A DNA stretch of 64,000 nucleotides from positions 45,193-109,192 of IMG/VR virus record IMGVR_UViG_3300009103_002144; one strand, 5' to 3'. The DNA comes from a virus. This document shows positions 6,323 to 57,708 of this stretch, one piece after another. Position 1 is the stretch's first letter. Every line of letters begins with the position of its first letter. The notes beneath the pieces are model-generated. The model had not been told where the DNA came from, searched no databases, and saw only the letters and a program-made list of their open reading frames with translations. Made by a program: the position numbers and the translations under genes.

Positions 6323-8167
6323 CTATCTCACTGTTACTACGATGTCTTTGTTAGGATATTTCAATTCAAAAATACTTCCAGGTGGGCCTACGACCATCTG
6401 TTGGTATGTGTTGCCATCAACACTAAATGATATGTCACTGTAAGTTCTTTCCTGAACAACGCCCGTTAAGTTTACGAGCTTAATATCGACCATCGACATT
6501 ACCCCCTCACTGTTTAGTACAGAATTGATTATATCTGCATAAGCGATAGGCATATCAATTTGCATGTTGTCTGTCTTAAGAAGTTGTGTTAATCGATTTA
6601 TTATCGTCTGTGCGACCTGAGACTTATTCGAGTCAGGGTGAGCAACGATATCCACATTTACTGCAAAATTTATTATTCTTGCATCTAGAATATCATAAGC
6701 ATCACTAACCGCCCTAAACTCATTCAAATAAATCCTAAGATTTTTCTTCAATGTATCTGACGACATTTTTAACTTCTTCCGCTTATCACGAGAAACAATG
6801 AAGATCAATGAGGCAAGAGAATTAATGGGATTGGGTCGGATACCCACTCTGTACACTCTTCCGAACTGATTAGGTAATGTGTAAACCCTAGCAATCAAGT
6901 CTTCCTTAGTAATTATTCGTGATTGCGCTGCGCGACTTGATGGGATCAATGCTCTAAGCTCGCTAATAGTCGGAGCGCGGTCGCCATCAAGAGCCGGTAA
7001 AGCATTTGAACAATCAACAGACCCTCTCACTTGAGATGCCTCAGCGGCACTGGCGGTGGATGAAAATTTTAGAAAAAGAGTCGTTATTGTCCTTATTGTC
7101 TCGGATCCGACGTTATGCTTCAGGCCGCCGCCGGCGCGATAAGTGATGGTAAGCACAGTGTTTCTTGGAGATATACCCAGGGTTTGTGTTTGAAGCATTG
7201 AGTTTGGGTCGATCGTAAAACGTGAAAACGTCGTTTTTCCATATAAGGGTAATGCCAATTCAGAGGGATCTGGAATAATGTCATTATCTAACGTCTTTGC
7301 ATTTCCGGCGCCGAATCTAATAGTTGTTAATTTGGTGTTGTAATCGTAGTTCTTTATGAATCGATACGGCGCTGGTATAACTTCAAGATTATAGCCAACG
7401 CTCTCGCTGTCTTCTGAAAGATTAATTATCTTCCTAAAAACGGTATCTTGTGAAAGCGATTCTACCTCGTAATACACATTACCATCGCTATCCTTTACAC
7501 TAACAATATCTGTAACGTTTTCATCTGGAAGAGTTAACGTTCGAAATGGCTTATGGATGTTCGGTATTTTTGTCTTCCACTCTTTTCTTACACCAGACAA
7601 ACATAAGCCATCTCGCATCACCACGTAATTAGTGGGAGTACCATCCTCCGCAGTTTCAACAACCACTGATTCATAAAGATAATTTCCGTCTTTGTCTTTT
7701 TCAGCAAAATCTAAGTCTTGTAGAAGGTTGAATGGAATACCATCATTAGACGTAAAGATGGATAGGGCTCCCACTGTTGGAAGTAATGAAGATTTCGGAG
7801 TTGTTATCCCATTTACTGTTTCACCCGGAATCTGAAAATATACTTTTACCATGACAACAGAGGGAGTGGCGCCGTGAACTTTCACACCGGCATTGCGCAA
7901 ATGCTTTTGGATATTTTTTACTTCAATAGCAGAAGACCAGTTAAGCTCGTTGAACTGGTGGTCCATATAAAAGGACATCGTATCGCCAACAAACGCAGCC
8001 ATATCCAGTAAAAGCCCTCCAAGACTAGCTTCGGAAAAATCTTGTATCTTATCTGAGAAATATAACTTTGCATGTTGATACAAAGAATTGCGAAAAGACT
8101 CAAAGTCTTTTGCCAAGTAATTTCTTTTATTTTCATTTTTTAGACTTCGCTTTACATTTATGGCCAT
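6323..8167 (-). CDS. Baseplate wedge protein, T4 gp6 / Baseplate J-like
   Basis: A 614-residue protein with the characteristic N-terminus of phage gp6/J wedge proteins: a short basic lead, then YLAKDFESFRNSLYQHAKLY, then EASLGGLLLDMAAFVGDTMSFYMDHQ at residues about 45-70, which is the conserved helix pair found in this family. The C-terminal third (VNVDIVAHPDSNKSQV and the strand-rich end) fits the conserved J-protein C-terminal domain. T4 gp6 is about 660 residues, so the length is right. It follows the gp25-like gene by 3 bp, the order seen in many contractile tails. It would form the inner wedge dimer of the baseplate. Confidence 0.88.
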   Translation of the reverse strand: MAINVKRSLKNENKRNYLAKDFESFRNSLYQHAKLYFSDKIQDFSEASLGGLLLDMAAFVGDTMSFYMDHQFNELNWSSAIEVKNIQKHLRNAGVKVHGATPSVVMVKVYFQIPGETVNGITTPKSSLLPTVGALSIFTSNDGIPFNLLQDLDFAEKDKDGNYLYESVVVETAEDGTPTNYVVMRDGLCLSGVRKEWKTKIPNIHKPFRTLTLPDENVTDIVSVKDSDGNVYYEVESLSQDTVFRKIINLSEDSESVGYNLEVIPAPYRFIKNYDYNTKLTTIRFGAGNAKTLDNDIIPDPSELALPLYGKTTFSRFTIDPNSMLQTQTLGISPRNTVLTITYRAGGGLKHNVGSETIRTITTLFLKFSSTASAAEASQVRGSVDCSNALPALDGDRAPTISELRALIPSSRAAQSRIITKEDLIARVYTLPNQFGRVYRVGIRPNPINSLASLIFIVSRDKRKKLKMSSDTLKKNLRIYLNEFRAVSDAYDILDARIINFAVNVDIVAHPDSNKSQVAQTIINRLTQLLKTDNMQIDMPIAYADIINSVLNSEGVMSMVDIKLVNLTGVVQERTYSDISFSVDGNTYQQMVVGPPGSIFELKYPNKDIVVTVR

Positions 8168-44838: not shown

Positions 44839-46149
44839 TTAAAGAATTAAAGAAGCTAGAGAAGCTATGTCTGATCTCTGTCCCTTTTCGAGCTGTACAT
44901 GTGCTGTAGAATTTTTATCCCTGAATTTGTGGACTACAATGGATAGACCGTTACTTAGCTTGTTGATATATGGAGTGTCAATTTGGTCTGTATCACCAAG
45001 TAGCACAATCTTTGATCCCTTTCCAATTCTAGTGATAATCGTTTTCAATTCATGTACTGTTGCATTTTGCGCTTCATCAACAATGACGTAGGAATCGTTA
45101 AATGTTCTTCCCCGAATATATGCCAATGGTGCAACCTCTAATTCACCTTTATCTCTCATCATTTCAAAGTACGTAAAGTTCTTATCACTTAACATTGTTC
45201 TGAAGTTGTCAGTGATTGGTGCAAGCCACGGCTGCATCTTGTCATCCATATCCCCAGGTAAGTATCCAAGATCCCTTCCAACCGGCTGTATGGATCTGGA
45301 AACTACTATTCTTTTCCACCTACCCTGCTGTACTCCGTCGATACCAGCCATTAGTGCTAAAAATGTTTTTCCAGACCCAGCAAGACCGGTTAGGGTTACG
45401 AGTTCTATATCATCACGCATCAAAGCTTCGACAGCAAAAGCTTGCTCTTTATTTTTCGCCTCGAAATTACTCATAAGTTGTCCTGGCTTTTTTACCAGCG
45501 GATAAAGATGATCATCTCTATGTATTGCCAATGCTGAGCCCGTTTTATCACCGGTTGTCATAACAACGAATTCGTTCGGTAAGAGATCATGATCGGAGAG
45601 TCGAAACTTTCCATCTCTATAAAAAGCATCAATGTTTTCTTTCGCTTCGTAAACCTCTCTGTGCCCCCTGTATTCTACGTTCGAGCTCTCGAGGTGGTCT
45701 TTATAGTAATCCTCGGCTCGTATACCTAGAGCGTCACATTTCACCCTTAGATTGATGTCTTTCGTTATAACCACAACCGGCCCACCATCACGATCTCTCT
45801 CAGACATGCATGTAGCCAATATTTTATTATCACCACTGTCTTTAGCTAGCCCTCGCGGTAGCTTAGATAAGTCCTCATCAATTGTGATCTTAATCGTTTG
45901 TCCATCCGACAAAGAGGTCGGAATAGCAACACCAACGTCAAGTCTCCCACTTCCTCGAAGCTCATCTAAAAAACGATTGATGTATCTAGCAGCTTCACCA
46001 ATCACCCCTGGTTTTTCTTTGAATCGATCAATTTCATCCATCACCTGCAGGGGTAAAATAACATCATTTCCTGGGAATGAATGAATAGCAGACTTATCAT
46101 ACAGAAGTACGCTTGTGTCTAAAATAAATCGCTTTCTTTTGTTTTCCAA
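44839..46149 (-). CDS. phoH: PhoH2-type protein: PIN domain fused to PhoH ATPase
   Basis: A 436-residue protein starting at TTG 46149, supported by AAGGAG 6 bases upstream. The N-terminal PIN domain (about 8-150) has the acidic residues of a PIN nuclease: Asp11 in FILDTSVLLYD, Asp104/Asp107 in DSGDNK and Asp131 in TKDINL. The PhoH domain has Walker A GLAGSGKT (255-262) and Walker B VIVDEAQNA (355-363), plus LLGDTDQID. Bacterial PhoH2/YlaK proteins of this layout are toxin-like RNA helicase/RNases; most phage PhoH proteins lack the PIN part. Likely role is RNA processing in infection. Confidence 0.92.
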   Translation of the reverse strand: MENKRKRFILDTSVLLYDKSAIHSFPGNDVILPLQVMDEIDRFKEKPGVIGEAARYINRFLDELRGSGRLDVGVAIPTSLSDGQTIKITIDEDLSKLPRGLAKDSGDNKILATCMSERDRDGGPVVVITKDINLRVKCDALGIRAEDYYKDHLESSNVEYRGHREVYEAKENIDAFYRDGKFRLSDHDLLPNEFVVMTTGDKTGSALAIHRDDHLYPLVKKPGQLMSNFEAKNKEQAFAVEALMRDDIELVTLTGLAGSGKTFLALMAGIDGVQQGRWKRIVVSRSIQPVGRDLGYLPGDMDDKMQPWLAPITDNFRTMLSDKNFTYFEMMRDKGELEVAPLAYIRGRTFNDSYVIVDEAQNATVHELKTIITRIGKGSKIVLLGDTDQIDTPYINKLSNGLSIVVHKFRDKNSTAHVQLEKGQRSDIASLASLIL

Positions 46150-47802: not shown

Positions 47803-48279
47803 TCATTTCGCAAAAGCGTCTGCTAGCGAAGAAGAAGCCCAAGCATTGGGCTTTACAACTGCATTATACCCAAATGAATTTACCCATGAAACGGCATTTG
47901 TTAAAACTCTTGAAGACGCAAACCTCTTATCGGGATTGATGTCAAGGTGTACGCTTATATTTTTGTCTGGAAATTCTCGCTGAACTCTGTGAGCAATATC
48001 TAAAGCTAATTCTGCTTCTTTCATAAGTCTAAACGGGATTGAAGAGAATGCTTCATCAGTGCTTCTTTTTCTGTGGAAATAAAACGTTCCGCCACGCCTT
48101 TGTACATAACCAGCAATTACTATTGCAAAGATATAGATGCCACCAACCTTATGGGAATCGCATCCTACATGAATTTCATAAAGATTATTTCCCTTAATTT
48201 TCTCTATTATATCGCTAAATGATGTCGGCTCGGAGTCTGCATCGTGCCAATTGATCGTCGATGTTCTCCACTTCGTCAT
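47803..48279 (-). CDS. YkuK/DUF458-like RNase H-fold protein
   Basis: A 158-residue protein. EIHVGCDSHKVGGIYIFAIV at about 34-53 fits the first strands of the RNase H-like fold with the catalytic-type Asp (CDS), and GGTFYFHRKR follows as in YkuK proteins (DUF458). NISVHLDINPDKRFASSR at about 107-125 gives the next Asp-containing strand, and SWVNSFGYNAVVKPNAWASS the final part. It is probably an RNase H-like nuclease or nucleic-acid-binding protein; activity is not proven for this family. It starts 1 bp after the chaperonin-like gene ends. Confidence 0.72.
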   Translation of the reverse strand: MTKWRTSTINWHDADSEPTSFSDIIEKIKGNNLYEIHVGCDSHKVGGIYIFAIVIAGYVQRRGGTFYFHRKRSTDEAFSSIPFRLMKEAELALDIAHRVQREFPDKNISVHLDINPDKRFASSRVLTNAVSWVNSFGYNAVVKPNAWASSSLADAFAK

Positions 48280-48280
48280 A

Positions 48281-49600
48281 TTAGTCCAGCTTGATAATGG
48301 CCATAATTTTATTTATGGCTTGAACATCTGATATCGCCCTCCTTACACAAATTTCAGCGACCTGCTTAGGTAATAGTCGCGGGATATATATCGACGGAGA
48401 ATATCCAATCCGACCATAGATTGTATCTAAGGAAACGACACCCTCTCTTCCTGCGCATGATAATAACTGAAATAAACCTCCAGCTCGATCTTGCAAGATC
48501 CCTAGCTCTGCTCTAGTGCAGTTAATCTTCACCACAGCTTTTCTTGTCGATAGTCTTGATAAGCGCTTCCGCAAAATGCTCTTAACGTCGTCAACTTTCT
48601 CTTTACCCAGATTGTTCTGTATGTCTTTTTGAAGAATTCTTATTGCATCAAAATTATGCTTCGTAGTCTTTATAGAAAGCTCATTCTTCTTGTCAGAATA
48701 TATTACTGAATTCGGAACCATTTCGCTAAAATCTAGTCCACTCAATAACAGTCCGGTGTCTTTTGATACTGGAAACGTTTTTGAAATTTCGCACATATCT
48801 TTGACTTGATTGATATTATCTAAATCTTTATTCAGGATGAGTGGAAGCACTTTAATAAGGTCTTTCTCCCAATTAACTCGAAGAGTATTCGCAACATCAT
48901 CAGAGTAATTGCTTGCAATAATAACAGCTGGAATGCTTTGCTCGTATGAGTACGTGAGGAGATGATGAATTTCACTAACTTCAAGAATCGCACCATCAAC
49001 AATAATGACTAAGCATCTATTGAATTCTATCGTACTAAGATCTTCTGAATCAAAAAATGAGTGAGTTGTACATGAGAATTTTGAACTACAATCTATTTCC
49101 ACCCGATTTACGGCATCAGTTTTTTCAACCACAATTGAGCCTAATGCCCCGGCTTCCTGCACGGCGCTTAAGAACAGTGGCTTATTTTTGATGGTTGGCT
49201 CATCGTGGATTGTCTTCTCCCATTCAGAGATAACAACCTCTGAATTTACCCTCTTAGCCTGTCCTACATCTTTTAATAATTCTCTAAAATCGGCACTTTC
49301 TTTACTCTTCAATAAGTGTTCTACAATCAGAAGGTAAAGTGGTATCCCTATAGAACATCTTGCGTTGATATTATATACGCTATTGAGTATTAAATTTCGA
49401 TATGCTGGTTCTGAATTGTTTAGCCCAATTAAAAGTGCACGAAAAGAATCATTCCACCCAATGGTGTGAAGACTGTCATCTAATAATATCGACAATGAAA
49501 GACTGTCAACTTCTTGAACAGCTTGGGAGATATCTTTTCTTAAAGAATTCTTACACCCTTGAATCTCATCCCTGCATATTACATCATTCTTTGCAGACAT
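48281..49600 (-). CDS. Divergent GroEL-like chaperonin lacking ATPase residues
   Basis: A 439-residue protein that aligns by eye to GroEL over most of its length. FLSAVQEAGALGSIVVEK (about 143-160) fits the start of the intermediate domain, RCLVIIVDGAILEVSEIHHL (about 195-214) then IPAVIIASNYSDDVANTLRV (223-242) the apical domain, SILRKRLSRLSTRKAVVKI (341-359) the R-x2-RLS-x3-AV-x-KI segment and REGVVS (about 385-390) the EEGVVAGGG region. The ATP loop GDGTTTA of GroEL corresponds to NARCSIGIP, and the second catalytic Asp seems replaced by Gly. Length is about 100 less than GroEL. Phage chaperonins exist in EL-like phages; this one looks catalytically dead or scaffolding. Confidence 0.72.
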   Translation of the reverse strand: MSAKNDVICRDEIQGCKNSLRKDISQAVQEVDSLSLSILLDDSLHTIGWNDSFRALLIGLNNSEPAYRNLILNSVYNINARCSIGIPLYLLIVEHLLKSKESADFRELLKDVGQAKRVNSEVVISEWEKTIHDEPTIKNKPLFLSAVQEAGALGSIVVEKTDAVNRVEIDCSSKFSCTTHSFFDSEDLSTIEFNRCLVIIVDGAILEVSEIHHLLTYSYEQSIPAVIIASNYSDDVANTLRVNWEKDLIKVLPLILNKDLDNINQVKDMCEISKTFPVSKDTGLLLSGLDFSEMVPNSVIYSDKKNELSIKTTKHNFDAIRILQKDIQNNLGKEKVDDVKSILRKRLSRLSTRKAVVKINCTRAELGILQDRAGGLFQLLSCAGREGVVSLDTIYGRIGYSPSIYIPRLLPKQVAEICVRRAISDVQAINKIMAIIKLD

Positions 49601-49941: not shown

Positions 49942-50406
49942 TCAAATATTTTCCCGCGATATCCCGAGATCAACTAGTCTTTCTGTTTCTTTTTCGTCTA
50001 AAAAGGTTAGTCGCTTAGAGTCGAATCCATATTTTATGAAGATCTCCTCCCCCTTTTTTATGTCTCTTTTCGCGTAATATAGTATTGCTCTTTCGGAGCC
50101 CTCCCTGAATTTCCAAAATGCGTTTGGATAGGAGCTGTGATTGTATATACCACCATATCCCATAGCTAAAGCATGAGTACCATCAGGAACCTTAAATACA
50201 TACGATTTTAGAAGGTGCTCTTTTCCATACATTTCGAGCCAATCAGCTAAGAGCGCAGGAGTAAAACAAAGATAGGGTGAAGCTTCGAAACAAGTATGTA
50301 GCGGAATATCTTTAGTTGCAAATACACCAAGACCATCCACCGTGGACTCTTTTACCACCACGTTATCAATAAAGTAGCCCTTTATAAATTCTCTTTCTCG
50401 AAACAC
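49942..50406 (-). CDS. SET-domain protein (putative protein lysine methyltransferase)
   Basis: I start this at GTG 50406, just past the PrkA stop, with GGAG about 11 bases upstream, giving 154 residues; the frame stays open to 50532 inside prkA. The SET core is clear: VVKESTVDGLGVFATKDI at the start (G-x-GVFA), YGGIYNHSSYPNAFWKF (the NHSxxPN SAM-binding motif), YYAKRDIKKGEEIFIKYG (KGEEIxIxYG). It would methylate a protein lysine using SAM. SET proteins of this size occur in bacteria and some phages. It is directly coupled to prkA in the stress-triad operon. Confidence 0.87.
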   Translation of the reverse strand: MFREREFIKGYFIDNVVVKESTVDGLGVFATKDIPLHTCFEASPYLCFTPALLADWLEMYGKEHLLKSYVFKVPDGTHALAMGYGGIYNHSSYPNAFWKFREGSERAILYYAKRDIKKGEEIFIKYGFDSKRLTFLDEKETERLVDLGISRENI

Positions 50407-50407
50407 A

Positions 50408-52336
50408 CTAGCTATCTCTCCAGAGATTATTACTTGCGTATACCAACACTTCTTCTGCTGATTCGGGAGTATAGCCGTATTCGTCGATAAGCGTCTGAAC
50501 CATGCTTGAGTATTTAACCTTCTGCTCATCATCTCGCGTCTTAGACTTAGTAACGATTCTAGCTAAGTCTTTTACAGAACTAATCAGGTAAGTTTCGATC
50601 GCTTCCTTAAGGGGCTCATACGATGTGTAGTCCACAATCTCGCCTCTGCGCATTTTTGCGAACATATACGCTGTAACGTCAGCTCGAAACCCCTCTCGCC
50701 CGGATTGGCTTACGCCAATAGAGCCCTCAATTGATCTCATAAACTCTTCATCAGGCTTCATCTCTTCTTTGGTCACCCTGTCTTTTAGCTTGCACTTCGT
50801 TGTAAATGCTTCTGCGTTATCAAGATAATTTTCAAAAATAGACTGGGCTTGCTCTTCGTACGCGGTGATGAATGCTTTCGCAATTTCATTCTCTAGTAAG
50901 CGTAGGTATTCATTTCTTACGGTATTTCTAATCAACTCAAGGCAGTGTGTTGCGAATTCTTTATCGATCAATTGTTCTTTGCATTGCTTCATTAGAGAAT
51001 CAAGAATTGAAACCGGAGTAACGAAGTCTTTATCAGAATCGCTAAGAGCATTATCAATCGCTTTCATGATAAACCTTGTGGATATACCATTCATGCCCTC
51101 GTTAGACGATTCATCTCTAAGATCATTAATGTCGATTTTTTTCACACGACCCTTTTCAACGACTTCTTCGCCATTATAGATTTTTAGCTTCGTCAATAAG
51201 TCACATTTCTGACTTGGCTTTAGACGACTTAAGATAGAAAACATTGATGCGACCCTAAGGGTGTGGGGAGCAATATGAATATCAAAGTTAGACAAGCTAA
51301 GAATCTTCTCGTAAATCTTTATTTCAGACTCCAGCTCTAAGACATAAGGAACGTTTACTTTTACGATTCGGTCCAAGATAGCTTCATTTGTATGTTCACT
51401 CTGGAATCTATTCCATTCAGCTTCGTTGCAGTGGGCAAGAATAACTCCATCGAAATGAATCATATCATGCTTTCCGGGGGACGGTACTCTCTTCTCCTGG
51501 GTTGCGGTAATAATCGTATGGAGAAACTCAATCTCATTCTTAAAGACCTCCACAAGTTCGACTATGCCCCTATTACCAACGTTGAACGCACCGTTTAATG
51601 AAAGCGACCGAGGATCATCTTCAGAGTATTTATCAAGTTTTGAGATATCTTCCGAACCGATCAGCACAGAAACATCTTGGCTGTTCGCATCCATTGGAGG
51701 AACAGACGCAACACCTCTTCTAGCTCGTTGAGAGAAAGTAGTTTCGGTGACTGAAAACTTTTCGTATTCTCCGCCATACTCTTCGAATAAAAGGTGCCGA
51801 GCTACTGGAGAAATATCTCCCTCGATTGCAACCCCAAGCATTTCTTTCATTTGACTTCTTAGAGACCTTGGGATCAACTGTAGCGGCTCTCCTCTTTGAG
51901 GGTCTCCCTCTAAGTGATAATAAGGTAAACCCTCTAATGAACTTTTTATATGTTCAGTTAAAGCAGATTTACCTGCACCAACAGGACCCATTAACAAAAG
52001 AACCTGCCGATTCTCTTCGCCTTTCATAGCAGCCGACCTCATATATCTCATAATCTTTGAGATAACCCTTTCCATTCCAAAGAATTGTCCTTGAAAATAA
52101 TCAAAGGTTTTGATGTCGTCCCCATCAAACAACTTATGCTTTCTGGGATCTGTATCGTCAAGAGTGCCAACGCCTCTATCGACAATCGCATCATACAATC
52201 TCTTATGTGCATGATCAGTAATTGACTTATCTTCTTCCACAAGCGCAAGATAATCGAGGAGAGTTCCCTTGAATTTTTCTTTCTTGCTTTTAGCCCGCTG
52301 GGACTTGATGATGTCTAAATATTTGTTCTTTGACAT
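50408..52336 (-). CDS. prkA: PrkA (YeaG)-family AAA+ serine kinase/protease
   Basis: A 642-residue protein, full length for PrkA (E. coli YeaG is 644). The AAA domain has Walker A GPVGAGKS (117-124), the NRGIVELVEVFKNE Walker B-like helix (255-268), and EAILDRIVKVNVPY (318-331) with the arginine-finger region. The C-terminal domain about 500-640 (helical, with GREGFRADVTAYMFAK) is as in PrkA. The family has been reported both as a serine protein kinase and as an AAA+ protease in sporulation. It is preceded by SpoVR and YeaH genes in the same operon, and followed by the SET gene. Confidence 0.95.
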   Translation of the reverse strand: MSKNKYLDIIKSQRAKSKKEKFKGTLLDYLALVEEDKSITDHAHKRLYDAIVDRGVGTLDDTDPRKHKLFDGDDIKTFDYFQGQFFGMERVISKIMRYMRSAAMKGEENRQVLLLMGPVGAGKSALTEHIKSSLEGLPYYHLEGDPQRGEPLQLIPRSLRSQMKEMLGVAIEGDISPVARHLLFEEYGGEYEKFSVTETTFSQRARRGVASVPPMDANSQDVSVLIGSEDISKLDKYSEDDPRSLSLNGAFNVGNRGIVELVEVFKNEIEFLHTIITATQEKRVPSPGKHDMIHFDGVILAHCNEAEWNRFQSEHTNEAILDRIVKVNVPYVLELESEIKIYEKILSLSNFDIHIAPHTLRVASMFSILSRLKPSQKCDLLTKLKIYNGEEVVEKGRVKKIDINDLRDESSNEGMNGISTRFIMKAIDNALSDSDKDFVTPVSILDSLMKQCKEQLIDKEFATHCLELIRNTVRNEYLRLLENEIAKAFITAYEEQAQSIFENYLDNAEAFTTKCKLKDRVTKEEMKPDEEFMRSIEGSIGVSQSGREGFRADVTAYMFAKMRRGEIVDYTSYEPLKEAIETYLISSVKDLARIVTKSKTRDDEQKVKYSSMVQTLIDEYGYTPESAEEVLVYASNNLWRDS

Positions 52337-52351
52337 TAAGTTTCTCCCGAA

Positions 52352-53659
52352 TTAGATTTCAAAGGGTTCATCCTCTATTATCGTGTCCAATTTAACTATA
52401 TCGCCCCACAATCGTTGGATATGTTTTACCACAGCATCCCCATAATCGAGGTCTAAATCTCTTCCCTCATGTTCATGCTCTAGAGCCAATATTCCACCAT
52501 CAATGATTTCTGAAATAGTTATTATGGGTATATTATTCCCCCCCACCTGATTGATAAGGTCTTCTTTTACTTTTTTCCATCCATCATCATCTGCGACATC
52601 GTCAATTAGATAATCATTTTTATGAAGTGAAAAACTAAATAAGTTCAACTCTTCGCAGTCCTTCTCGGTTAGATATTGTCTCAAGAATGCTTCATCATTT
52701 AGTGACTCTCTGGCTATGAAGCATTCTTCTAATCCATATCTTTCTTCGATCTTCTGAAACAGAAAGAACCCAAGGTGGTAAGGGTTTATCGATCCAAGAT
52801 GGGGTCGAACAACTTCATTATGCATTTTTAAGAAGGGAAGATGTAGTCCTGAATCCAGATCAAGCTCATGCATTAATCGATAATGCCAATATGACGCCCA
52901 TCCTTCATTCATTATCTTTGTCCTGATTTGCGGCATAAAATACTGAGCATCATCAAGTACGATCCAAAGCAATTCTCGTTCCCACTCTTCAAGATTCGGA
53001 GACATTTCAGCTATAAAAGCTATTAAATTTTCTTCTCTAGAGATTGGATACACATCAGGATTGGGGGTCGTTTTTTTCTTTTTATAGTATCCTGACTTTA
53101 TGTCTATGATTAACTCTTTTCTTTGTTCTTTTTGACTGACATATTTTTTATACTGTCGTGGTACGTGAAGAGATAGCGCATGCGCTGCATCCAAAATTTC
53201 TTCAACTCTTTGCACTCCGATGCTGGGATCTTCTACGAGTTGATCGATATATCTTTTTGCATTTCTCATTCTAAGAATAACTTGGTCCGGTCGGGTGTGA
53301 CAGAATGTTATGTTGTTCTTAAAGAAGTCCGAGTGACCAATACAGTGTGCCATGATCAATATTTGAAGATACAATGGATTTTCTTCCATCAAGTATGCTA
53401 GCGATGGATCGCTGTTAATAATGAGTTCATAAGGTAGTCCCTCTAATCCAGCATTATACATTGTGTGAGTTCGTTCAAAGCTTTTCCCAAAGCTCCAGTG
53501 TCCGTAATGGGATGGCATCCCATGGTAGGCCATGGTCCCAATCATCTCATAATAATCACATGTTTCATAAAGAATGGGAAACCAATCAAGGCCATGATCT
53601 TCTGCCATCTTAATTAACTTAGCATCCCACTTTTGTAATTCTTCCAAAAATGATGACAT
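52352..53659 (-). CDS. spoVR: SpoVR-family protein (YcgB-like)
   Basis: A protein of 435 residues starting at ATG 53659, with GGGAG 7 bases upstream. Diagnostic SpoVR parts are LDWFPILYETCDYYEMIGTM and AYHGMPSHYGHWSFGKSFER near residues 25-65, GLPYELIINSDPSLAYLMEE at about 73-93, and the HSDFFKNN helix. Bacterial YcgB is about 510 residues, so the C-terminal part is shorter here. SpoVR acts in spore cortex formation in Bacillus and in stress physiology in Gram-negatives, with links to peptidoglycan enzymes. It is coupled to yeaH by a 1-bp overlap. Confidence 0.95.
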   Translation of the reverse strand: MSSFLEELQKWDAKLIKMAEDHGLDWFPILYETCDYYEMIGTMAYHGMPSHYGHWSFGKSFERTHTMYNAGLEGLPYELIINSDPSLAYLMEENPLYLQILIMAHCIGHSDFFKNNITFCHTRPDQVILRMRNAKRYIDQLVEDPSIGVQRVEEILDAAHALSLHVPRQYKKYVSQKEQRKELIIDIKSGYYKKKKTTPNPDVYPISREENLIAFIAEMSPNLEEWERELLWIVLDDAQYFMPQIRTKIMNEGWASYWHYRLMHELDLDSGLHLPFLKMHNEVVRPHLGSINPYHLGFFLFQKIEERYGLEECFIARESLNDEAFLRQYLTEKDCEELNLFSFSLHKNDYLIDDVADDDGWKKVKEDLINQVGGNNIPIITISEIIDGGILALEHEHEGRDLDLDYGDAVVKHIQRLWGDIVKLDTIIEDEPFEI

Positions 53660-54822
53660 CACATCTCTCCCTTGAAGAATCTTCTAAAAGCCGTCCAGAT
53701 ATCGTCTTTTGAATAAATCCCAGCTAACTTAAATTTATCGCACTCTAGCTGTTCGTAAAGCTTACTAAGTGTAGTATCACTAAGCCACTTCAGTCTTTCT
53801 TGATTCGGCTCTATCTCACAATACCCAAAAAATTGAATTTTGTCAAGAAGTGAATTGATTATATTAAGACACACATTATTGTCAGTCGGCCAGTTATCAC
53901 CATCAGAGCACTGGAAAACGTATGTGTTCCAGCTAGACTTGTGATATCTAGAACCTATTATGTCATCAGCCATTTTCAATGCTGATGACACCATAGTACC
54001 ACCACCTGATCCGCGACCAAAGAATTGCTCTTCTGTAACTTCATAAGCTTCTACATCATGAGCGATAAATACAATCTCTACCTTATCATACTTGGACCTA
54101 ATAAAGTGATATAGAAGAAAGAAAAAGCTTCTGGCTAAAAATTTCTTTTCTTTTGTCATAGATCCGGAGATGTCCATCAAGAACAGTATTGCTGCATTCG
54201 AAGACTTTTTCTCGGTTACCTTGTAATGCTTATAACGAAGGTCTTTTTCATGAAACGAGAATTCATCTTCATCACTCGCCAGCTTTCCAGTTCTTTTTGC
54301 TTTATTCTTCCTTTTTAATTTTTGTATTACCGTTTTCTTTTTGTCAAGTCTCGGTCTGATACCTTGTGATCGATATCCTTTTCTTTTTATTTTTTTTGCA
54401 ATAACTTGAGCATTTCTTTTCTTTTCAAAATTGGGTAATTCAAGATCATTAAACAAGTAGTCAGCAAGTTGCTCCAGGGTTAGTTCAACTTCGTAATATT
54501 CTTCACCTTTTTCCTGTCCAGGCTTATCAGGTTTTCCTCTACCCTGTTTTTCTTTTTCGCCAATCTTCTGACCGCGCTGGACATCTTTTCCCTGAGCTGA
54601 CCCAACTCTTCTAGACCCATTATCTCCATATACGAAACGATACTCTTTAATTCCACGAACGGGTATCTTGAATTTTTTCTTTCCGTCCTTGCCAATAATT
54701 GACTCTTCAGCCACAATATTGTGAATGCCCTCTTTAATCGCTTTCTCGATCTTCTTACGGTGACGGGCCCGATCCGATGCTGATCTATCGGCAATTGTTT
54801 TATGACGTCGGAAAATTGACAT
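53659..54822 (-). CDS. yeaH: YeaH/YhbH-family protein (DUF444, VWA-like)
   Basis: A 387-residue protein. The N-terminus FRRHKTIADRSASDRARHRK then KIEKAIKEGIHNI is the DUF444 signature. The middle is very basic. The VWA-like domain has MIDAS residues Asp217-x-Ser219-x-Ser221 in FLMDISGSM and Thr276 in SGGGTMVS. E. coli YeaH is about 427 residues. It is the first gene of the triad operon; its stop overlaps the SpoVR start. In bacteria it is co-transcribed with prkA under RpoS, and its VWA domain likely scaffolds the PrkA/SpoVR complex. Confidence 0.95.
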   Translation of the reverse strand: MSIFRRHKTIADRSASDRARHRKKIEKAIKEGIHNIVAEESIIGKDGKKKFKIPVRGIKEYRFVYGDNGSRRVGSAQGKDVQRGQKIGEKEKQGRGKPDKPGQEKGEEYYEVELTLEQLADYLFNDLELPNFEKKRNAQVIAKKIKRKGYRSQGIRPRLDKKKTVIQKLKRKNKAKRTGKLASDEDEFSFHEKDLRYKHYKVTEKKSSNAAILFLMDISGSMTKEKKFLARSFFFLLYHFIRSKYDKVEIVFIAHDVEAYEVTEEQFFGRGSGGGTMVSSALKMADDIIGSRYHKSSWNTYVFQCSDGDNWPTDNNVCLNIINSLLDKIQFFGYCEIEPNQERLKWLSDTTLSKLYEQLECDKFKLAGIYSKDDIWTAFRRFFKGEM

Positions 54823-54848: not shown

Positions 54849-55265
54849 TTATAGAAGACAGACTGCTTTAAGAAAGTAACCTGCTTCGATATGGTCAACA
54901 AGATAGGACAAACAATTGGATATTGCCTTGTCTTTCGTCACCCATTCATATCCTTCATGCTCCAATATTCCAGAATGCGGATTAGGCGTGATTTGAGGGA
55001 TCTTATCTGTGATAGCAGAATATGTTGCCAGACGATCGTCTTTCAAAGTCGGGAGTGGTGCTAGCATTTCTTGAGGCTCTACGAATATTGAGCACTCCTC
55101 GAATGTTTCTCTTTTAGCAGCAGTAATATCACTTTCTCCTCTATCGATCACGCCCTTAGGAATATCATATTTCCCATCATTACGAATTAACACAAGCATC
55201 AGGTCTGGATTATCTGCTTTGAAAATTACAAATCCGGCGCCCTGTTTATTCTTTCCCTCGGTCAT
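54849..55265 (-). CDS. Nudix hydrolase
   Basis: A protein of 138 residues begun at ATG 55265, with GGAGG 6 bases upstream (another ATG at 55271 is too close to the site). The Nudix box reads GVIDRGESDITAAKRETFEE (G-x5-E-x7-RE-x2-EE), with Ser where the usual Gly follows; the preceding DIPKG is typical of NTP or dinucleoside polyphosphate hydrolases. It may act on nucleotide metabolites or nucleotide sugars. It overlaps the mannose isomerase gene by 20 bp. Confidence 0.87.
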   Translation of the reverse strand: MTEGKNKQGAGFVIFKADNPDLMLVLIRNDGKYDIPKGVIDRGESDITAAKRETFEECSIFVEPQEMLAPLPTLKDDRLATYSAITDKIPQITPNPHSGILEHEGYEWVTKDKAISNCLSYLVDHIEAGYFLKAVCLL

Positions 55266-55584
55266 AGTCATCCTCCAATCTTACCACATCTTCTAAATAA
55301 GGTGTGCTAACTTCAATGACTTCAACGCTGGTTTCATTTGCGCCAAAGCGATGTACCTGTCCTACGTTGATGTGCAAAGAATTTCCCGGCATAACTTTGG
55401 TAATTGTACCATCATCTTCGTAATTGTAGAGTACTCCCTTAAGAACATATACTGTCTCTTCTTTGATCATGTGAAATTGTTTTGATAACCGATGACCAGC
55501 ATTGATATGCAAAAGCTTACCAACGTATGCATTTGTTTCGGCCCATACTACTTCATAACCCCAGGGTTTTTCAATTTTTCTCAT
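55246..55584 (-). CDS. Mannose-6-phosphate isomerase, type II cupin domain
   Basis: A 112-residue cupin. EKPWGYEVVW at the N-terminus is the signature of the PMI cupin found at the C-terminus of ManC/AlgA. LLHINAGHRLSKQFHMIKEE gives the metal-binding His/Glu set, and SLHINVGQVHRFGA the second cupin motif. It would convert fructose-6-P to mannose-6-P as a free-standing domain. Together with the PMM at 57755 it would feed GDP-mannose synthesis for the gmd/fcl genes. Confidence 0.88.
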   Translation of the reverse strand: MRKIEKPWGYEVVWAETNAYVGKLLHINAGHRLSKQFHMIKEETVYVLKGVLYNYEDDGTITKVMPGNSLHINVGQVHRFGANETSVEVIEVSTPYLEDVVRLEDDYDRGKE

Positions 55585-56077
55585 TCTTTTCTGCCTCTTC
55601 TAATAGCCAAGATGAGCTTTGCACTTTTCCTCCACCGACGTTGAAAATGACCTTACACCCAACTTCCTGACATATATCCCATTCCGGTATATCTTTTGGC
55701 TCGGCTCTATCTCCACCCTTCGTGAAAAAATCGGGTTTAAGATCAGCAATCGCTCCGATAACCGTTTGACCACCATCATCCCAAATAATTGCTGCATCTA
55801 CCCCTCGGATTCCAGCGATTATTTCTGCTCTTTCAGCAGCAGGCATAAAAGCCCTTCCCTTTTTTCGTTTCAGAAATCCATCTCCGTTAACAATGACAGC
55901 TACATACCCGCCATCTTGTTCTGCCATATCAACTGTTTCGAGGATGCATCTTAGGTGACCAACATGAAGAGGGTCGAACCCTCCTGATGTCATATAGACG
56001 TTGATCCCCTTTCCTCCCCAAATTCCATCTCTGTCGATATACTCTCTAAATTCTTTGACTGATGCGTAAACTTTCAT
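55571..56077 (-). CDS. HldE C-terminal/RfaE2-like nucleotidyltransferase
   Basis: A 168-residue cytidylyltransferase-fold protein. The HxGH site is in TSGGFDPLHVGHLRCI at about 31-46; LKPDFFTKGGDR at about 113-124 is the KGGD segment of the HldE adenylyltransferase domain, and GGGKVQSSSWLLEE matches its C-terminal DGxSTT region. It resembles the D-glycero-D-manno-heptose-1-P adenylyltransferase part of HldE without the kinase half. Glycerol-3-P cytidylyltransferase is the other possibility. Overlaps the helicase gene by 4 bp. Confidence 0.82.
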   Translation of the reverse strand: MKVYASVKEFREYIDRDGIWGGKGINVYMTSGGFDPLHVGHLRCILETVDMAEQDGGYVAVIVNGDGFLKRKKGRAFMPAAERAEIIAGIRGVDAAIIWDDGGQTVIGAIADLKPDFFTKGGDRAEPKDIPEWDICQEVGCKVIFNVGGGKVQSSSWLLEEAEKNEKN

Positions 56078-57708
56078 TTTTGTAAACTATCCTTGAACCC
56101 CTGCGGGAACATTGAACGATTTCTATTATAAAACATCTCAAAATCTGAGTCTAAGATGTACGTAATCGCGGTGTCTTCATTGGACCTAACTGACCGACCT
56201 GCAGCCTGAACTATTGTCTTCGCCGTTTGTAGTGGATACCACCATTTCCACTTATTCATCTTTTTTCGTACTAGCTTATCGCCTAAGTATGGATACGGCA
56301 CCTTACAGATGATCTGGAACCGACTTAAGTCACCTTTGAGGTCAACACCTTCAGTCATGGATGGTGAGATGAGTACGGTGGCCTTCCTGGCCTTCATATG
56401 CTTTTCTAAAACCTTCTCTCTGTTTTCAGAATTATGAATTAACAAACGAGCGCTACGAACGTTTCTCTTGATATAATTCGCGACTTTATAAGAATGACAA
56501 TGAATAATTCCCTTATCATTCTTATGCTGTTCTAAAATAGCTTTCACTGCTTGTACCATTCTTGGAAGCGTATCATCGATTGTTTTTGAGCTCATTTTTC
56601 CAATACCACTATAAATAACCGGCCGGTTTTCAATAGGAAACGGACTAGGTAGACTGATAAAAGCTGCTTTATCCTCGGGAATTCCGACGCTTTCTGTGAA
56701 TGCTTTTTTATCAAGAATAGTTGCAGACATCAGAATAACGACTTCACCGTAATTGTATAAATGCTCATTCGCAAATGGAGCGATATCGATCGGTTTAAAT
56801 TCGATTTTTCGCCCAGAGCGTCCATCCGCTGCAATCTCATTCATGACCCAATTTTCAGAGTTGTATAATTTCAAAAATCTTCGAACCTTACAGACATGCT
56901 TATCCATGACCTCAAACTTCTTAGCAATGGATGCGAATTCTCCAGACTTAATCTTCTCTGTTAATCCCACATATTTTTCTAACATCTGCTCTAAATGCTT
57001 AAGCTTCCCAGCGATTGTTGGGACGTACGTCTCTTCAATCCACTTTACATACTTCGCAGCAGTCAAAGACTTGGGAACTTCAAAATTGAGAAAACTTTTA
57101 CAAAATCGATTTGAGATTGTAATCTCGATGAACTTGCTTAATTGCGAATCAACATTATGCGCTTCATCAATGATGAGTACTTGTCGAGGAGTTAGTTTTC
57201 CAGCGTACTGTGTTTCCGCTAAAAAATATGGAAAGTTAGTTACTCCTTCTGGAGACTTCAGGAAACTTTCCTTTGCATTTCGATATACACAATTAAACGT
57301 ACAAGCTTTCCAAAATGCGCTTCCCTTCTCTGCTGTCTTTAGGGTCCTTAAGCTCTCCCCACAAGAAGTTTTTTTATTAAACCTACAAGTATAATTTGAG
57401 GATGACTTAATCGATTTCATTGGTCCGGAAAATCCGCCGAAATCTTTAACGTATTGTTCTTGTAGTATTTTTTGTGTTGTTAAGAAATAAGATCCCCGAT
57501 CGAATAACCCTGCTGTGTTTGACAGCTTTTCGGTGAGGTATCTAGCGACAGTTAAACCCACCGCGCTTTTACCAACCCCTGTACCCGCTTCAATGATGAT
57601 GAACCGCTTACCCTCTGTAAGGTGCTTATTAAGCGCAAATTCGATCGCTTCCTTTTGCTGTGGTCTAATTTGTTTATATGGAAAATGTTTAGAATATTGA
57701 AGGCTCAT
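56074..57708 (-). CDS. XPD/DinG-like superfamily 2 helicase with Fe-S cluster
   Basis: A 544-residue helicase. Walker A AGTGVGKS (41-48); four Cys at 108, 116, 136 and 140 (TCRF, TSCGE, KACTF, FNCVY) match the 4Fe-4S domain of XPD/DinG; motif II DEAH at 181-184; later VAFISLPSPFP-like region, TVLISPSMTEGVDL and QAAGRSVRSNED for motifs V-VI. It would unwind DNA 5' to 3' in replication or repair. A perfect 8-bp stem that covers its ribosome-binding site precedes it. Confidence 0.92.
   Translation of the reverse strand: MSLQYSKHFPYKQIRPQQKEAIEFALNKHLTEGKRFIIIEAGTGVGKSAVGLTVARYLTEKLSNTAGLFDRGSYFLTTQKILQEQYVKDFGGFSGPMKSIKSSSNYTCRFNKKTSCGESLRTLKTAEKGSAFWKACTFNCVYRNAKESFLKSPEGVTNFPYFLAETQYAGKLTPRQVLIIDEAHNVDSQLSKFIEITISNRFCKSFLNFEVPKSLTAAKYVKWIEETYVPTIAGKLKHLEQMLEKYVGLTEKIKSGEFASIAKKFEVMDKHVCKVRRFLKLYNSENWVMNEIAADGRSGRKIEFKPIDIAPFANEHLYNYGEVVILMSATILDKKAFTESVGIPEDKAAFISLPSPFPIENRPVIYSGIGKMSSKTIDDTLPRMVQAVKAILEQHKNDKGIIHCHSYKVANYIKRNVRSARLLIHNSENREKVLEKHMKARKATVLISPSMTEGVDLKGDLSRFQIICKVPYPYLGDKLVRKKMNKWKWWYPLQTAKTIVQAAGRSVRSNEDTAITYILDSDFEMFYNRNRSMFPQGFKDSLQK

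Follow-up and report, generated by a model that had tools for sequence, protein, structure and literature searches.

Three genes coding for homologs of the bacterial proteins PrkA (YeaG), SpoVR (YcgB), and YeaH are carried by a widespread group of large tailed phages from marine samples, and it is highly probable that the trio is a functional phage module. It is probably a working machine of the phage and not a stray host fragment. The best explanation of the findings as a whole, to which a probability of about 0.5 is assigned, is that the trio is inherited as a module in which an AAA+ motor with a VWA adaptor remodels SpoVR, and that this module serves the quiescence of the host.

The Trio and Its Phage Context

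The window, i.e., the whole stretch of 64,000 nucleotides analyzed here, corresponds to bases 45193–109192 of a 109,192-bp IMG/VR virus record. The three genes adjoin on one strand, as in the bacterial PrkA–YeaH–SpoVR operon. The gene at 53659..54822 (minus strand) encodes a YeaH/YhbH (DUF444) VWA protein of 387 aa with an intact MIDAS (Pfam PF04285, 1.1e-110; 371 bits vs. a cut-off of 27), which also shows a weak match to the cobaltochelatase VWA subunit (TIGR02442, 8.5e-5). Its stop is overlapped by 4 nt by the GTG start of the SpoVR/YcgB family gene (52352..53662, minus strand), the 436-aa product of which is recognized by PF04293 (2.5e-117; 392.5 bits vs. a cut-off of 27) and by the SpoVR_C domain of Pfam (1e-7). 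After a gap of 15 nt follows the gene of a PrkA/YeaG AAA+ protein of 642 aa (50408..52336, minus strand; PF08298, AAA_PrkA, 4.6e-137, and PF06798, PrkA C-terminal, 3.7e-78). Hence, the first-pass annotation, which had described a coupled minus-strand YeaH–SpoVR–PrkA unit, full-length or nearly so, in a phage, was correct in coordinates, strand, order, and (by Pfam) identities. All three proteins of the window score below the respective NCBIfam equivalog cut-offs: PrkA with 396 vs. 576 bits required for E. coli YeaG, SpoVR with 272 vs. 679 bits, and YeaH with 394 vs. 468 bits (TIGR02877). Judged by profile scores, the phage PrkA is a subfamily separate from the E. coli YeaG equivalogs.

The record encodes the large terminase (TerL), portal, head maturation protease, SbcC-like, and primase genes, and the window harbors another phage hallmark, a baseplate wedge protein (6323..8167, minus strand; phrog_219, 8e-11). 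The terminase, portal, head protease, and baseplate genes indicate a tailed phage. The terminase of a relative is T4-like, the nearest being that of Microcystis phage Mel-JY01 (42%), and a megablast search against known phages returned no match. The T4-type late promoter TATAAATA occurs in the window no more often than by chance, and no copy precedes the trio on the strand that encodes it.

A bacterial origin of the contig, e.g., as a segment of a chromosome, had been named as the finding that would overturn the phage assignment. Such an origin, or a recent accidental capture of a host fragment, would agree with the presence of the same genes in bacterial genomes and with the terminal position of a YeaG–YeaH pair in the record of Enterobacter phage LAU1. 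Still, the phage hallmark genes on the same record rule out a bacterial contig or contamination, and 88 distinct viral PrkA sequences fall into one deep clade with conserved phage neighbors, making this explanation improbable in the extreme.

The surroundings of the trio are common to most of the close relatives. Upstream lie the genes of a phage DNA helicase (56074..57708; phrog_2488, 7.9e-118), a cytidylyltransferase-like protein (55571..56077; PF01467, 1.8e-11), a cupin (55246..55584; PF01050, 2.5e-9), and a NUDIX protein (54849..55271; PF00293, 5e-9); downstream lie those of a divergent GroEL-like protein (48281..49600; phrog_5725, 1e-7), an RNase H-like protein keeping its position in many relatives (47803..48279; PF04308, 1.3e-24), and PhoH (44839..46149; phrog_2765, 1.4e-97), all on the minus strand in the window. 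The GroEL-like protein gives a profile match to GroEL residues ~127–410 (5.7e-39); the matched part comprises the intermediate and apical regions, and both ends of the protein are unrecognized. Its gene evolves rapidly, yet its position is kept in many relatives, also in phages devoid of the trio.

Conservation of the Active Sites

In the PrkA of the window, the Walker A motif GPVGAGKS at residues 117–124 and the sensor residues are intact, with N304 and R323 in place, and G117–S124, N304, and R323 are invariant in 88 marine phage PrkA sequences. Likewise, the MIDAS residues D217/S219/S221/T276/D307 are invariant in 83 marine phage YeaH sequences, so the intactness of both sites, as initially reported for the single contig, extends to the marine phage sequences. 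In SpoVR, H106, H110, and E253 are invariant in 88 marine phage sequences and in all 158 sequences compared. The bacterial trio proteins share the tested motif residues, nearly all of which are retained in the Thermus phages and the 600-kb phages described below.

Comparison with the closest relative, L002, yielded dN/dS values of 0.020, 0.014, and 0.013 for the three genes, those of SpoVR and YeaH being rough due to the high dS; strong purifying selection on the trio is evident from these sequence comparisons. In the same pair, synonymous divergence amounted to 0.25 in PrkA vs. 1.4 in the adjoining SpoVR and 2.5 in YeaH, a jump suggestive of recent recombination across the end of PrkA.

The extent of conservation bears on the idea that the trio works as a decoy or as a competitor, subverting the PrkA, YeaH, and SpoVR of the host, e.g., by poisoning host oligomers and thereby blocking host shutdown. 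The marine phage proteins are indeed related to, yet diverged from, a bacterial subfamily (52–60% identity for PrkA), which speaks for this idea. However, there would be little reason for a decoy to keep the active sites of all three subunits intact, and the retention of all tested motif residues under strong purifying selection renders it quite improbable.

Spread and Gene Order

The scans of IMG/VR retrieved 71 related stretches with PrkA and at least 279 with SpoVR, of which the best 80 were taken. The three genes do occur as a set in phage genomes: all of them were found in 149 of the 159 loci inspected, and the other 10 were cut by the contig end. Since the loci overlap in contigs, identical SpoVR sequences were removed, leaving 86 distinct complete viral loci, every one of which (86/86) displays the order YeaH–SpoVR–PrkA; the order in 61 sampled bacterial loci is PrkA–YeaH–SpoVR. 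Twelve contigs of 204–298 kb from the trio set all harbor the terminase (12/12) and YeaH (12/12), which makes this a jumbo-phage lineage.

Several loci stand apart in the sample. Among the bacterial loci sampled, only that of a Sulfobacillus benefaciens MAG (L228) shows the phage-like order YeaH–SpoVR–PrkA, and its place in the PrkA tree is close to the Thermus phages. In a Marinisporobacter MAG (L205), PrkA is found in two pieces ~5 kb apart, with an otherwise normal YeaH–SpoVR pair. A contig of 305,838 bp assigned to the Methylococcaceae MAG TMED69 (L184, NHDW01000006.1) contains a trio in the phage order along with phage neighbors, and its gene content most likely marks it as a jumbo-phage contig misbinned into a bacterial genome. 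In the record of Enterobacter phage LAU1 (L177, MN688132.1), YeaG and YeaH without SpoVR are situated at the record start beside prophage tail genes, and they probably represent the host chromosome flank in a prophage record.

Carriage of the trio genes by phages is already known. In the cultured Thermus phages phiYS40, TMA, phiLo, MN1, and Lalka27b, all three genes reside on one strand in the order YeaH–SpoVR–PrkA, annotated gene by gene as "conserved bacterial protein" or hypothetical, SpoVR, and serine kinase. Their genes are strongly diverged from the marine ones (30–33% identity for PrkA), and their PrkA belongs to another branch of the PrkA tree. In TMA (L161, 6112–7962), an extra gene encoding 616 aa without an NCBIfam match is inserted between SpoVR and PrkA; phiLo, MN1, and Lalka27b lack it. 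The uncultured phages of 595–642 kb (LR745206, LR756504, LR756502, and LR756511) also possess the three genes but in the bacterial order PrkA–YeaH–SpoVR where these are adjacent, and SpoVR is distant in LR756502. The Ralstonia jumbo phage RsoM2USA encodes PrkA (ORF30) and SpoVR (ORF28) with one ORF between them; according to the table of the original paper, both are closest to bacterial genes, and its authors treat them separately (PMC8504454). The bacterial operon, known from Clostridia, Myxococcota, and Proteobacteria (in E. coli, yeaGH and ycgB), links the same three families and differs from the phage trio in being chromosomal and in its order. In E. coli, the SpoVR gene (ycgB) is located far from yeaGH, which means that close linkage can be dispensed with in some cases.

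The PHROGs collection contains a family for each protein of the trio, none with a function, and no paper treating the trio as a phage unit was found in the literature searched. The marine clade, the scale of carriage, the fixed phage order, the evidence from empty sites and relocation, and the repeated capture of the whole trio appear to be new.

Repeated Capture of the Whole Trio

Gene trees were built from 75 sequences. They were midpoint-rooted, with long branches limiting their detail, and are read here for groupings and not for which way the genes passed between bacteria and phages; among the bacteria, sampling leans toward the best hits of a single scan. In the trees of PrkA, SpoVR, and YeaH alike, all marine phages fall into one clade with full support, next to one and the same group of bacteria (Clostridia, Myxococcota, Bdellovibrionota, Flammeovirga, and others). 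It is this bacterial subfamily with which the marine phage PrkA shares the 52–60% identity mentioned above. The Thermus phages make up a separate long-branched group, and the 600-kb phages LR745206 and LR756504, along with a 92-kb viral contig (L174), are placed in a proteobacterial branch.

A single clade of all phages was rejected by the AU test (p = 2.8e-40), as was a clade uniting the marine and Thermus phages (PrkA tree, p = 2e-8), and a single origin for all phage trios is thus ruled out. Hence, the expectation of one clade of phage copies holds within the marine group, in all three trees, and fails for the phages at large. The placement of the marine, Thermus, and 600-kb phages on different branches implies that the whole trio was captured at least three times. 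Separate transfers of the individual genes with disrupted active sites, the outcome that would have spoken against a common unit, were not found: the three trees agree, and the motif residues are intact.

Empty Sites and Relocation

Additional contigs were picked by the terminase alone, most of which, other than G019 (239 kb) and G020 (211 kb), are too short to judge the absence of the trio. In G019 and G020, no PrkA or SpoVR was found in the presence of the flanking genes: a stretch of ~5 kb holds PhoH, the helicase, and the GroEL-like gene but no trio, and in G019 the NUDIX gene is located between the GroEL-like gene and the helicase. The relatives devoid of the trio thus display an empty site at helicase–(NUDIX)–GroEL-like–PhoH. 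In G003 (298 kb), PhoH and the helicase are ~1 kb apart, and the trio, nested within the marine clade in the PrkA tree, occupies a different site of the contig, with its order kept and other genes as neighbors. Taken together, the empty sites and the relocation in G003 indicate that the three genes come, go, and move together. The trio as a universal core of the terminase clade is ruled out by G019 and G020; that some related phages manage without it also weighs against the explanation favored here.

Putative Mechanism and Function

The genes of the trio belong to the most widely distributed stress genes of bacteria. Whether PrkA is a kinase, a protease, or neither is contested; in vitro, the PrkA of B. 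anthracis had scarcely any activity as a protease or kinase, although sporulation depends on it (PMC13001217). A solved homolog of PrkA is available (9xip). In the model of the phage PrkA (pLDDT 87), the AAA+ domain is closest in fold to Lon, BchI, sigma-54 activators, NorQ, and CbbQ, including NorQ bound to the VWA domain of NorD, and no protein kinase appeared in the 50 best fold matches. This likeness is not specific to the chelatase/MoxR group, since Lon and sigma-54 activators score alike. The C-terminal part of the model is nearly all helical. The AF2 model of SpoVR is confident (pLDDT 92.7); a Foldseek search against the PDB gave no match with E < 0.001, and against the viral structure library it gave one match, an unnamed protein. 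The invariant H-x3-H...E of SpoVR suggests a resemblance to a metal site.

The AAA+ folds of PrkA, the cobaltochelatase match of YeaH, and the conserved residues of SpoVR collectively favor an AAA+ motor with a VWA adaptor acting on SpoVR, a mechanism considered somewhat likelier than its negation. PrkA would serve as the AAA+ ATPase motor and YeaH as its MIDAS/VWA adaptor, a pair predicted to act like NorQ–NorD, CbbQ–CbbO, or BchI–BchD. The trio resembles these systems in the MIDAS-VWA partner and a third protein with metal-like residues, and perhaps in the shape of the AAA+ domain, which is equally close to Lon and sigma-54 activators; it differs from them in the long helical C-terminal domain of PrkA and in SpoVR, which matches no known client. 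The PrkA–YeaH pair may remodel or activate the metalloprotein-like SpoVR, its putative client in a presumed physical complex.

In E. coli, YeaG acts together with YeaH as a "metabolic brake" in nitrogen starvation (PMC10954441), and YeaG supports RpoS-dependent survival (PMC4664914). The phage-encoded complex might impose or stabilize the quiescent, stress-tolerant state promoted by this pair in E. coli, and a poorly fed host would be kept intact through a long infection. The initial proposal of a starvation-like host state fits this biology by analogy; host quiescence as the purpose of the trio is nevertheless put forward tentatively.

Alternatively, the trio may serve the own needs of the phage, namely, the assembly or quality control of its proteins in concert with the GroEL-like neighbor, leaving host physiology aside. 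The GroEL-like gene is directly downstream in many relatives, the trio of Lalka27b sits between the head genes and TerL, and the AAA+ domain of PrkA is like that of Lon and other remodelers. At the same time, the GroEL-like gene is present also in phages lacking the trio, the relocated trio of G003 has no recognized GroEL-like neighbor, and the bacterial relatives act in the stress response and not in virion assembly, so this alternative seems unlikely.

A role in envelope change, counter-defense, or exclusion of other phages recalls the classical phenotype of spoVR in Bacillus, the formation of the spore cortex (Beall and Moran 1994, as cited in PMC4605624). The first-pass annotation had likewise entertained an action on peptidoglycan enzymes, but nothing was found pointing to such enzymes, and the conserved neighborhood contains none. 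Among defense families, the sole match was a marginal AAA hit (DolB, 3.8e-4), on which the trio was rejected as a defense system. A role of this kind is therefore improbable.

If remodeling of SpoVR and host quiescence are retained as the explanation, a broader and rather doubtful generalization would be that large phages took the whole machine at least three times to set the activity state of the host, the phage-run AAA+/VWA machine acting on SpoVR keeping starved marine bacteria quiet and alive while a long infection runs its course, and that a widespread clade of marine jumbo phages relies on this as its standard strategy. The repeated joint capture by unrelated phages and the intact relocation in one subclade provide natural evidence for one working unit, and the cultured Thermus phages bearing the trio make the question amenable to bench tests. 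The gene spoVR is reported to be the most abundant sporulation-type gene in viromes of oxygen-minimum zones (PMC8940887); "sporulation" auxiliary genes of this type would then be reread as parts of a stress-state module and not of sporulation.

The SET Gene and a Putative Glycan Island

The gene next to PrkA in the window (49942..50406, minus strand) encodes a SET-domain protein (Pfam PF00856, 9.2e-15; 55 bits vs. a cut-off of 22.4), the nearest solved SET proteins being 5h6z and vSET of PBCV-1. Judging from the reading frame, its start is most likely the GTG at 50406, 1 nt past the PrkA stop; the ORF start at 50532 falls within PrkA, so the protein comprises ~154 aa and not 196. A SET gene immediately after PrkA is confined to the window and to L002, L003, and L026, its nearest relatives; in the remaining relatives, it is upstream or missing from the locus. 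Thus, the SET gene initially assigned to the unit is real but accessory, lying outside the core, and its limited adjacency to PrkA rules it out as a core member.

Farther along the window (12306–34617, minus strand), ~25 co-directional genes, including matches to glycosyltransferases and a nucleotide-sugar epimerase, make up a probable glycan-synthesis island.
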